Shown one piece after another: positions 57,186 through 60,377 of a stretch of 64,000 nucleotides of DNA. The position numbers were made by a program, and so were the translations under genes. Position 1 is the stretch's first letter, and each line of letters opens with the position of its first letter. This stretch comes from Bacteroidia bacterium (GTDB lineage Bacteria; Bacteroidota; Bacteroidia; B-17B0; Aurantibacillaceae), in contig JALHRL010000017.1 in the NCBI GenBank assembly GCA_022841465.1, forward strand, positions 1-64,000. Reading direction: 5' to 3'. The notes under the pieces were generated by a model. That model worked only from the letters and a program-made list of their open reading frames with translations, searched no databases and had not been told where the DNA came from.

Positions 57186-57545
57186 ATGAAAAACAAAAAT
57201 CTCAAAGAATTTGCAAGAGAAAACAGAAATGATTCTACTTTTGGTGAAGTTATTCTTTGGACCAAAGTTCTTTCTAAAAAAAAGTTGGGTTATCAATTTA
57301 ATCGACAATTTATAATTGAAAATTTTATTGTTGATTTTGTGAGTAGGAAACTAAAATTAATTATAGAAGTTGACGGATACTCCCATCAATTCAAATATTC
57401 AAAAGATAAAAATAGAGATTTCGTTTTATCTAAACTTGGTTATACCGTTTTGCGTTTTCAGGAAGCTGAAATAAAGTATGACCTAGATAATGTTGTAAGA
57501 AATATTTCTGATTACATTGAAAATTTTGAAAAATCCAATTTGTAG
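57186..57545 (+). CDS. DUF559-family Vsr-like endonuclease
   Basis: A 119-residue protein of the DUF559 family, which shares the fold of very-short-patch (Vsr) and restriction endonucleases. Visible motifs are the N-terminal RENRNDSTFGEVILW, YQFNRQFIIENFIVDFVS (D about 57 of the catalytic core), KLIIEVDGYSHQ (E-x-D about 67-69) and GYTVLRFQEAEI. It probably cuts or nicks DNA. The gene is enclosed by four copies of a palindromic repeat, two on each side. This suggests that protein and repeats form one mobile or selfish unit. Confidence 0.85.
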   Translation: MKNKNLKEFARENRNDSTFGEVILWTKVLSKKKLGYQFNRQFIIENFIVDFVSRKLKLIIEVDGYSHQFKYSKDKNRDFVLSKLGYTVLRFQEAEIKYDLDNVVRNISDYIENFEKSNL

Positions 57546-58188: not shown

Positions 58189-58479
58189 GTGAACAAAGAG
58201 GTAATTATAGATACCATCCGCAACTTAAAACCTTTCTTAAAAGAAGAATTTGGTGTTGAAGAAATTGCATTGTTTGGATCGTATGCACGTGGAGAAGAAA
58301 AAAATTATAGCGACATTGATTTATTAGTTAAACTAAACAAAACTACCCTGCGTAACTATATTGGAGTAATTGATTATTTGCAAGAAAAACTAAATTCCAA
58401 AGTAGATTTAATATCTAAAAATAATCGATTATCTGACAAGTTTTTGCGTTTAATAAGCAAAGACATCATTTATGTATAA
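58189..58479 (+). CDS. MNT-type nucleotidyltransferase (antitoxin, MntA-like)
   Basis: A 96-residue protein starting at GTG. It has the minimal nucleotidyltransferase motif LFGSYARGEEKNYSDIDLLVKL (G-S-x(9-13)-D-x-D, written here as a pattern) at about 29-50 and a third acidic residue in KVDLIS. In type VII toxin-antitoxin systems the MNT protein AMPylates and silences the HepT RNase. It overlaps the HepT-like gene by 8 bp. Confidence 0.88.
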   Translation: MNKEVIIDTIRNLKPFLKEEFGVEEIALFGSYARGEEKNYSDIDLLVKLNKTTLRNYIGVIDYLQEKLNSKVDLISKNNRLSDKFLRLISKDIIYV

Positions 58480-58828
58480 CGAAATTATTCTTACAAAACT
58501 ATCTTATTGCCTTGAACATATAGAAGCAATAGAAGAATATACGAAGGGAATTTCTGATGCGGAAATTTTTGTCACAAAACAAAACGGATTGATTTACGAT
58601 GGTTCATTAATGAGATTACAAGCTCTAGGAGAATTATTAAAAAGCATTTCAACAAAGCACCCAAAAATAATTGAAGATTTGAATTATAAAGAAATTTATG
58701 ATGTAATAAAATTCAGAGATTATGCCTCACATCATTACGAGAGATTAGCGCATGATATTGTTTTCAGTATCATTCAAATTAATTTACCTGAACTAAAAAC
58801 ATGTGTGCTAAGGTTAATAAACATGTAA
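58472..58828 (+). CDS. HepT-like RNase toxin (DUF86)
   Basis: A 118-residue helical protein of the HEPN/HepT family. The active-site region is KFRDYASHHYERL (about 85-97), matching R-x(4-6)-H with the following tyrosine that is the AMPylation target in known HepT proteins. It should cleave RNA when not silenced by the MNT partner. The gene lies directly after the repeat-bounded DUF559 unit and before the structured repeats at the epimerase gene. Confidence 0.85.
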   Translation: MYNEIILTKLSYCLEHIEAIEEYTKGISDAEIFVTKQNGLIYDGSLMRLQALGELLKSISTKHPKIIEDLNYKEIYDVIKFRDYASHHYERLAHDIVFSIIQINLPELKTCVLRLINM

Positions 58829-58844
58829 TTTGTTTTAAAAATAA

Positions 58845-59119
58845 AATGATTACAGGAAAAAAAATACTCATCACAAGAAGCTTTTCAGCCTCATCCCCAG
58901 CCCTTCTCCAAAGGAGAAGGGAGCACTTTAGGAATATTTTTGATTGTTGATAGTTTAGAACTTTTTGAAACATCATCTTCATACTTATACTAACCTTTCT
59001 TTTGAAACCGCGTGCGCGGGCTGGGCGCTCCGTGTTAGGCGAGTGGCCTGTGTGGGGAATTGGAGCGCCTTGAATTTTTTGTTACTTTTTGTTTCAAGAC
59101 AAAAAGTAAGTTCTAAAAT
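58845..59119 (+). repeat. Unit A: epimerase 5'-end fragment plus structured element
   Basis: Starts ATGATTACAGGAAAAAAAA and continues TACTCATCACA, a diverged copy of the first ten codons of the gene at 59400, then non-coding sequence with CCTTCTCCAAAGGAGAAGGG. It carries stem-loop 59024-59069 (GGCGCTCC/GGAGCGCC) and terminal hairpin 59082-59109 (TTACTTTTTG/CAAAAAGTAA). The same order recurs in unit B. Confidence 0.8.
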
Positions 59120-59399
59120 ATGATCACTAATAAAAAAATATTAATAACAGCTACATTCGGCCTCACTCCCGACGACTTCGTGTCGGGATTAAAAACCCAA
59201 CCTTCTCCAAAGGAGAGGGGGTATGTTGCGAACTTAACGTTTTTGAAACACCAACTTAATACTAGCACAAATGAAAATATCGGAGACGCGTGCGTAGGCC
59301 TGCCCGTTCGTGCTAGGGGTGTGGCTCGTGCGTGGAATTGAACGGGCTTGTCTTTTTGCTTACTTTTTTGACTAAGAAAAAAGTAAGGAGAAAATAAAA
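59120..59399 (+). repeat. Unit B: second epimerase 5'-end fragment plus structured element
   Basis: Starts ATGATCACTAATAAAAAAAT and repeats the layout of unit A: CCTTCTCCAAAGGAGAGGGG, stem-loop 59302-59347 (GCCCGTTC/GAACGGGC around a 30-nt loop) and terminal hairpin near 59360-59386. The true gene starts at 59400. The 73-codon frame it contains (59120-59341) is a truncated pseudo-start, not a gene. Confidence 0.8.
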
Positions 59400-60377
59400 A
59401 TGATCACGAATAAAAAAATACTTATCACAGGTGGTGCAGGTTTCATTGGCAGCAACCTATGCGATTATTTCATTGAAAAAAACAATCACATCACCTGTTT
59501 AGATAATTTCGCTACAGGCAAACGCGAAAACATCGCCCATTTAAAAAACAATAAAAACTTTAAACTCATTGAAGGCGATATCCGCGATTTGGAAACCTGC
59601 AAAAAAGCGTGTGAAGGCATCGACTATATTTTACACCAAGCAGCACTCGGCTCGGTACCTCGCAGTATTAACGACCCCATTACCACCAACGAAGTGAATG
59701 TAAGCGGTTTTTTAAACATGTTGGTTGCAGCACGCGATGCGAATGTAAAACGTTTTGTGTACGCCGCCAGCAGCAGCACCTATGGCGATAGCGAAACACT
59801 TCCTAAAGTAGAAGAAATAATTGGCAAGCCCCTCTCCCCCTACGCTGTTACAAAATACGTGAACGAATTATACGCGCATGTGTTTGGTTTAAATTACGGA
59901 CTGGAATGTATAGGCCTCCGTTACTTTAATGTGTACGGCCGCCGGCAAGACCCTAACGGTGCTTACGCTGCAGCCATACCAAAATTTTGCATGCAATTAA
60001 TGGCGCACGAAAGCCCGGTAATTAATGGCGATGGCACTCACAGCCGCGACTTTACCTATATTGACAATGTGTTGCACATGAACGAATGTGCTTTAAGCAG
60101 CACAAACCCCAAAGCTATTGGTGAGGTGTTTAATACGGCGGTGGGAGAACGTTCTGATTTGAATCAATTGCTAGAGTTACTGAAAACCTATTTGAGTAAC
60201 TATGATGCGGCTATTAAAAACATAAAATTAACCCATGGCCCTATTCGTAAAGGAGATATACCCCACTCTTTGGCGAGTATAGAAAAAGCAAAAGAAGTCT
60301 TAGGCTACAAACCTTCTCACAATTTGGAAAAGGGATTGAAAGAAGCGGTGGAATGGTACTGGGAGAATTTGAAATAA
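59400..60377 (+). CDS. UDP-GlcNAc/GalNAc 4-epimerase-like SDR enzyme
   Basis: A 325-residue extended SDR protein with NAD-binding GGAGFIGSN (11-19), HQAALGSVPRSI (79-90), a feature of WbpP/TviC-type UDP-HexNAc 4-epimerases, and the catalytic S125, Y148 and K152 (SPYAVTKY). RYFNVYGRRQDP follows. It likely interconverts UDP-GlcNAc and UDP-GalNAc (or the uronic acids) for surface polysaccharide. First gene of the terminal plus-strand cluster; the stop is directly followed by hisH. Confidence 0.88.
   Translation: MITNKKILITGGAGFIGSNLCDYFIEKNNHITCLDNFATGKRENIAHLKNNKNFKLIEGDIRDLETCKKACEGIDYILHQAALGSVPRSINDPITTNEVNVSGFLNMLVAARDANVKRFVYAASSSTYGDSETLPKVEEIIGKPLSPYAVTKYVNELYAHVFGLNYGLECIGLRYFNVYGRRQDPNGAYAAAIPKFCMQLMAHESPVINGDGTHSRDFTYIDNVLHMNECALSSTNPKAIGEVFNTAVGERSDLNQLLELLKTYLSNYDAAIKNIKLTHGPIRKGDIPHSLASIEKAKEVLGYKPSHNLEKGLKEAVEWYWENLK

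Follow-up and report, generated by a model that had tools for sequence, protein, structure and literature searches.

Repeated heads of an epimerase gene beside a family of hairpin repeats in Bacteroidota: possible scars of successive allele replacement

The window analysed here is a stretch of 64,000 nucleotides, positions 1 to 64,000 of contig C17 in a 3.77-Mb draft genome of 125 contigs (G000 in what follows). It contains an intact gene for an NAD-dependent epimerase, and upstream of this gene its first codons occur two more times. Each of the two extra gene starts is followed, in the same order, by a hairpin repeat called R (CCTTCTCCAAAGGAGA), a weakly conserved stretch, and an element called E, which runs from a 5' motif through an 8-bp stem (P1) around a 30-nt loop to a tail hairpin. 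The features of the locus are as follows.

58846–58875, forward strand: A1, a ten-codon epimerase head (MITGKKILIT), read as the remnant of an older allele
58886–58926, no strand assigned: R repeat after A1, with a palindromic core at 58902–58921 (CCTTCTCCAAAGGAGAAGGG)
59002–59075, forward strand: core of E1, comprising the 5' motif, the P1 stem and the 30-nt loop
59024–59031 and 59062–59069: P1 stem of E1, GGCGCTCC pairing with GGAGCGCC
59069–59109, forward strand: tail of E1, with CTTGAA, a T-rich stretch and the hairpin TTACTTTTTGT / ACAAAAAGTAA around the loop TTCAAG
59120–59149, forward strand: A2, a ten-codon epimerase head (MITNKKILIT), read as the remnant of a second older allele
59159–59221, no strand assigned: R repeat that follows A2 and encloses another small palindrome, with its core at 59201–59220
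59280–59353, forward strand: core of E2, with its 30-nt loop
59302–59309 and 59340–59347: P1 stem of E2, GCCCGTTC pairing with GAACGGGC
59347–59386, forward strand: tail of E2, with CTTGTC, a T-rich stretch and the hairpin TTACTTTTTT / AAAAAAGTAA around the loop GACTAAG
59400–60377, forward strand: A3, the intact NAD-dependent epimerase gene, 325 aa (PF01370, E 1.7e-56)

Directly upstream of A1 lie a DUF559 gene (57186–57545) and a nucleotidyltransferase/HepT-like pair (58189–58828).

A preliminary description of this DNA had placed the threefold gene start at 58845, 59120 and 59400; the second and third positions hold, and the first was one base early. A1 differs from the start of the current gene at 6 of 30 nt, with one residue changed, and A2 at 4 of 30 nt, with all ten residues identical. 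The three starts are regularly spaced (274 and 280 nt), the two intervening units can be aligned with a mean column identity of 77%, and the repetition was recovered as a repeat family, D1, with 64% and 79% identity over 39 nt. On length alone the repeat is nonetheless weak, because its scores of 46 and 41 in a flank-to-flank test, against a control median of 25, stay within the highest control values (the controls hold one very high value, 894, probably from overlapping or repeat-sharing pairs of loci). Between A2 and A3, pS is 0.51 and pN 0.04, and the synonymous bias in the window by itself is not significant (P 0.10 for A1 and 0.11 for A2). The distances among the window heads, 4–8 of 30 nt, fall within the range between the orthologues of other species (also 4–8 of 30). 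As evidence for scars of allele replacement, the ten-codon copies of the window are suggestive only.

The stem-loops reported after the first two gene starts proved exact in their stems, in the 30-nt loop and in the 23 of 30 loop positions that are identical, and the stems, which differ at 4–5 of their 8 pairs, are indeed fully paired in both copies. The inner "terminal hairpins" of E1 and E2 align poorly with each other. That compensatory change maintains the fold was borne out by an alignment of 11 copies of E, the number from which a covariance model was built. In P1, taken with one added pair, standard pairs fill 99.0% of the cells, as compared with 72.1% in shuffled alignments; 6 of the 9 pairs have changed on both sides, and there are 24 double-change cells as against 7.1 in the shuffles. 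Not one of 500 shuffles matched the paired share, the number of double-change cells or the covariation score, and the covariation was lost when the partner was slid by 1–3 columns; two coarser measures are attained more easily by shuffling, the double-change pair count in 7 of 500 and the count of further pair types in 98 of 500. Exchange of whole stem-loops between copies would mimic covariation. The P1 fold is thus conserved, and a DNA hairpin accounts for it equally well as a structured RNA.

The covariance model located E at eight places in its own genome: the two in the window, one at C17:80414, four on contig C33 and a weak one on C26. A similarity search recovered the same places except for the second window copy and the weak match on C26. 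Most of the G000 copies sit in polysaccharide loci, and at a wecB-like locus two of the three copies are near-identical and lie about 200 nt apart. At an E-value of 0.01, 5 of the 40 genomes of the genus have matches to the model, strong ones in four (G000, G008, G033 and G036). The five further sites in its own genome, the copies in relatives and the covariation of P1 together argue that E is not a chance structure. A search of window positions 58300–59700 against Rfam 15 gave no family at the gathering threshold, the sole match being a chance one to mir-4679 (20.6 bits against a threshold of 88, E 0.71), and a search over 16 tail-bearing loci gave nothing at E 0.1. The loop sequence GTTAGGC resembles the core motif of an integron attC site, but this identification was rejected, the loop varying to GCTAGGG or GATAGGA in other copies. 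Two tandem arrangements were observed in passing. On contig C24 of G033 (L099:5070-6066), 290-nt units with well-kept spacers form an array of 3.4 copies, in which the P1 stems differ among the units and each is self-complementary; and at the end of contig C17 (L041:18080-18580), tandem copies with CGTCATTGCGAGGAGC and its inverted form reach the contig end.

Beyond the genus, E belongs to a wider family with a common architecture, in which a variable P1 stem is followed by a tail of the form CTTGAN, T-rich stretch, b, NTCAAG, b', where the loop NTCAAG is the complement of CTTGAN. Likeness to the core and tail of the window copies, mostly through the tail, was found in 23 of 60 genomes including its own, and of the 247 genomes examined in the class 13, its own again among them, have tails that fit the strict pattern. 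A pattern scan of named genomes yielded at least 119 stretches; among the 80 matches listed with titles, 79 are Bacteroidota by name and one is a Candidatus Competibacteraceae MAG. Of 169 tails, 139 match a stricter pattern, and in 135 of these the variable base of CTTGAN is complementary to that of the loop (T-A in 85, C-G in 30 and A-T in 20). A stem of at least seven exact pairs ending at or next to CTTGA is present in 55 of 108 elements from named genomes, versus 8 of 108 shuffled ones. A pseudoknot in which the six CTTGAN/NTCAAG pairs form together with the full tail hairpin was dismissed by reasoning, since the two pairings look sterically impossible at the same time, and they are therefore treated as alternative pairings or as a signal in the DNA. 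That the tail might act like the guide pairing of IS200/IS605 elements is only a thought. The titles and abstract openings returned by a literature search contained no description of this repeat family or of such head remnants; excerpts of a survey of palindromic repeats name Bacteroidetes once (PMC3733652).

The evidence that the family is mobile comes from G231, where the element lies within a gene-less unit of 284–325 nt that has terminal inverted repeats and the ends TAGG...CCTA. Both ends were recognised in 6 of 10 copies, and all six are flanked by exact 8-bp target duplications, for which the control value was 1 in 2000. The family is thus mobile in G231, with a short duplication, and its unit there resembles the MITEs, one of which is recorded for Porphyromonas gingivalis (PMC4596501). 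In the genus of the window, unlike MITEs, the copies show no clean ends (the left flanks of 14 copies align only near the core, and inspection by eye recognised no terminal repeats), and they have a conserved internal core of P1, CTTGAN and tail; we therefore do not class E of the window among the MITEs. The family also resembles REP/RAYT systems in consisting of intergenic hairpin repeats, and its own genome has two Y1_Tnp genes. It differs from them in that the one of these two Y1 genes that was inspected, close to the wecB-like locus, has an unrelated repeat of its own on its flanks, and mobilisation as a REP was rejected for this gene. This Y1/RAYT-like transposase gene (L042:4200-4970) is flanked by CCGCTCCCGCGCGAATCCTTTCGCGTGG, with two copies before it and an inverted one after it.

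The strict core of E defines 11 sites in the genus, when tandem copies are counted once and the weak matches on C26 and in G009 are excluded. Direct repeats of host sequence flank five of these sites, while the other six are without them. The five are the window, the wecB-like locus (PF02350), a VanZ-like 3' end (PF04892, E 1.5e-7), the array on C24 of G033, where the flanking repeat is non-coding, and G036. The expectation that further copies of E would carry a piece of the adjacent gene was thus confirmed, since 5 of 11 sites are flanked by repeats of neighbouring sequence, and gene pieces stand beside the wecB-like gene, as a VanZ-like fragment, and in G036, G019 and G021. Third codon positions hold 17 of the 24 differences between remnant and gene in G036, 15 of 25 in G021 and 13 of 20 in the VanZ-like pair, with pS of 0.56–0.75 and pN of 0.08–0.13. 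Because the differences are mainly synonymous, most of the gene pieces are not fresh duplicates. The exception is the wecB-like piece, with four differences in 54 nt, one synonymous and three non-synonymous; this near-identical copy fits a recent duplication equally well. No intact relative of the VanZ-like gene was found in the genus by DNA comparison, which gave only matches of 22–28 nt outside G000, and the G036 remnant does not discriminate between sources (79% identical to G000 and 77% to its own gene). In a broader comparison, covering the 157 of 169 elements with long enough flanks and with controls that reach 64, the high scores outside the genus came mostly from non-coding repeats. 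An R-type hairpin repeat (CCCCTCTCCTTGGGAGAGGGG) was also seen on the minus strand at L042:9070-9125; it is apparently translated, since it keeps to the reading frame of the wecB-like gene, close to the beginning of that gene.

The clearest head remnants occur in G019 and G021, where a head of about 42 codons is followed by a tail-bearing element and then by the intact gene. The G021 head is, as protein, 93–95% identical to the intact genes of G006, G007, G034 and G026 and 76% identical to its own gene; in DNA, the G019 and G021 heads are 82–90% identical to the genes of those four species and 70–71% identical to their own. A tree in which the remnant is the sister of its own gene's head was rejected for both (AU p 0.006 for G019 and 0.021 for G021). 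In G019 and G021, then, the remnant comes from another allele than the adjacent intact gene, as expected of a scar of allele replacement. Compared with the genes of those other species (G019 versus G034 excluded), the intact genes of G019 and G021 show 63–69% identity over their first 120 nt and 64–89% in later 120-nt stretches, so that, judged by sequence likeness, each appears to combine a native-looking body with a foreign-looking head. Tree tests of such a hybrid gene point the same way and miss the 0.05 level: placing the gene heads with those species was not rejected (p 0.062), and the same held for a grouping of the gene body with G061 (p 0.104). Support for the head tree is weak (37/76). 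G019 and G026 have the same neighbours on both sides, except that in G019 there is also a DUF1016 gene, and 57 nt of the epimerase 3' end are present a second time. The heads of G019 and G021 end at nt 125–127 of the gene, at or next to the conserved codons for LDNFS, and by reading that of G036 stops no more than one codon away from these. With 89% identity in the flank, G019 and G021 are near relatives, and the two may share a single ancestral event.

E is linked with the process that forms the remnants. The tail begins 53–56 nt before the start codon in all four genes of the 325–326-aa type (G000, where the distance to the window start codon is 53 nt, G008, G015 and G036), and no tail was found within 1.2 kb of any of 16 genes of a related type or of three further epimerases; G019 has a tail at −62. 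These counts come from a survey of tail positions with 25 rows from 27 loci, and the 4-of-4 versus 0-of-16 placement indicates that E or its tail travels with the head of the 325–326-aa type. In G061 the order is tail, 11 codons, an R-type repeat, a DUF1016 gene and the intact gene, so that an R repeat directly follows a cut head there as well. E is neither needed nor sufficient, since G212 repeats a head without E (L363:1288-1505: a repeated upstream stretch, a 21-codon head that by reading differs from the gene at eight synonymous and two other codons, a small hairpin and the intact gene), and G008 and G015 have E or its tail and no remnant. The remnant scan used a threshold of 60, below which the window's own heads fall with a score of 49, and one hit, L379, at 1069 nt upstream, was not counted because it looks like a neighbouring paralogue.

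DUF1016 (YhcG-like PDDEXK) genes were also seen between long direct repeats of host genes: about 385 nt in G028 (L333), where the doubled gene encodes a 23S rRNA-intervening-sequence protein, about 400 nt in G036 (L335) and 57 nt in G019 (L336). In G036 and G019 the remnant and the element precede the gene, and the DUF1016 gene follows it, with a second copy of the 3' end of the epimerase gene beyond. A survey of 23 DUF1016 loci left 20 that were scored (two had no ORF and one no second flank; at L347 a neighbouring gene was scored instead), with one very high control value (428) that probably comes from overlapping or repeat-sharing pairs. Long flanking host repeats were found at only 3 of the 20 loci, and PF06250 has no match in G000, G008 and G021; homing by DUF1016 was therefore rejected as an explanation and is kept as a side observation.

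The structure of E is real and well paired, and its repeat family is of a mobile type. For the threefold gene start, the reading that we favour, by a modest measure of confidence, is a fossil record of one gene's head, left by successive allele replacements beside E. A1 and A2 would be the heads of earlier alleles, and position 59400 the start of the current one. In each round, DNA carrying E and a new gene head would have joined the resident gene near its start, leaving the old head upstream while the reading of the gene stayed open. E, as a hairpin repeat of mobile type, would ride in front of the new head and, since it travels ahead of that head, would mark the junction. The right side of the exchange may be explained by homologous recombination inside the gene. 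The left side could be an illegitimate join, or else E or R may first have inserted into the gene, which a later recombination through a shared repeat then rescued. The likeliest course, we infer, is that incoming DNA recombines within the gene on one side and is joined illegitimately or through a repeat on the other, and the short copies of the window may have the same history as the remnants of the relatives. A bolder extension, which we regard as improbable, makes the family repeat a portable cap that travels with the head, directs the left junction through its conserved hairpins, and re-heads surface-polysaccharide genes repeatedly, leaving a series of fossils whose relative ages could be read; the common LDNFS end of the G019, G021 and G036 remnants would fit such a preferred site.

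The regular 274/280-nt spacing and the alignable units of the window could also have come from tandem duplication of gene head plus E, with the hairpins as sites of slippage or unequal crossing-over, followed by unselected decay. A true 290-nt array of 3.4 copies does exist in G033, and at the wecB-like locus two of three E copies, as well as gene and head, are nearly identical. Neutral decay, however, should not favour synonymous sites, the remnants in G019 and G021 do not group as sisters with the heads of the genes they precede, and the window stems differ at 4–5 of 8 pairs while both remain paired; we consider tandem duplication an unlikely source of the gene starts. The preliminary description had offered two further possibilities, a structured RNA and a hairpin-mobile element that duplicates its target, and each has stood in part. 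E could act as a 5' leader whose structure regulates the epimerase gene, with the upstream starts as translated leader ORFs or their relics, and the covarying P1 stem, the near-constant position of the tail (−53 to −56 in four of four genes of one type, −62 in G019) and the presence of most G000 copies within polysaccharide loci are all consistent with it. The conserved fold stands, yet the genes on either side of 57 elements have no favoured orientation (the downstream gene is on the same strand in 27, on the opposite strand in 29 and absent in one), which argues against a general role as leader RNA; with no Rfam family and a MITE-like unit in G231 as well, a leader seems improbable, even more so than tandem duplication.

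Mobility, for its part, was supported in G231, and a hairpin transposon with an unusually long target duplication of 30–150 nt could be imagined from the direct host repeats at 5 of the 11 strict-core sites. Where the boundaries are clean, however, the duplication is 8 bp; 6 of the 11 sites have no repeats, and where repeats occur, their lengths differ and they are diverged alleles. The G019 and G021 pieces resemble intact genes from other species more closely than they resemble the gene beside them, so that the claim that the element duplicates its target is not supported, and a target-duplicating transposon is very improbable. Scars of allele replacement explain the gene-head fossils better than target duplication does.

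Precedents exist for the kind of event proposed here. Bartley and others describe, in the meningococcal capsule island, a truncated galE2 with kinship to the resident allele, and suggest that it arose when DNA entered the resident galE by illegitimate recombination (PMC5349592). As with galE1 and galE2, the surface-polysaccharide locus here pairs an intact epimerase gene with what is left of a different, truncated allele; in the meningococcal case, however, a 24-kb island entered, and the 3' part of the truncated gene survives, its first 402 nt being lost (PMC5349592). In the present loci it would be a single gene head that is exchanged, sometimes repeatedly, with the 5' end surviving and hairpin repeats at the junction. 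A second precedent is homology-facilitated illegitimate recombination, known from experiments with linear DNA (PMC3240628). A homologous joint on one side and an illegitimate one on the other would yield the order remnant, new head, resident body, and the shift of identity between head and body in G019 and G021 would fit this, short of the 0.05 level in the tree tests; the present case is deduced from end states, behind which there may be one event or several. The parts are of known kinds, and their combination and recurrence are unusual.

The hairpin family is widespread in Bacteroidota. Its stem can be altered throughout and still pair, its tail consists of two interleaved inverted repeats, and it has no Rfam match. 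If the reading as allele-replacement scars is right, old heads beside intact genes would record how alleles have succeeded one another in surface-polysaccharide loci, and the end of each exchange could be located by comparing the head of a gene with its body.
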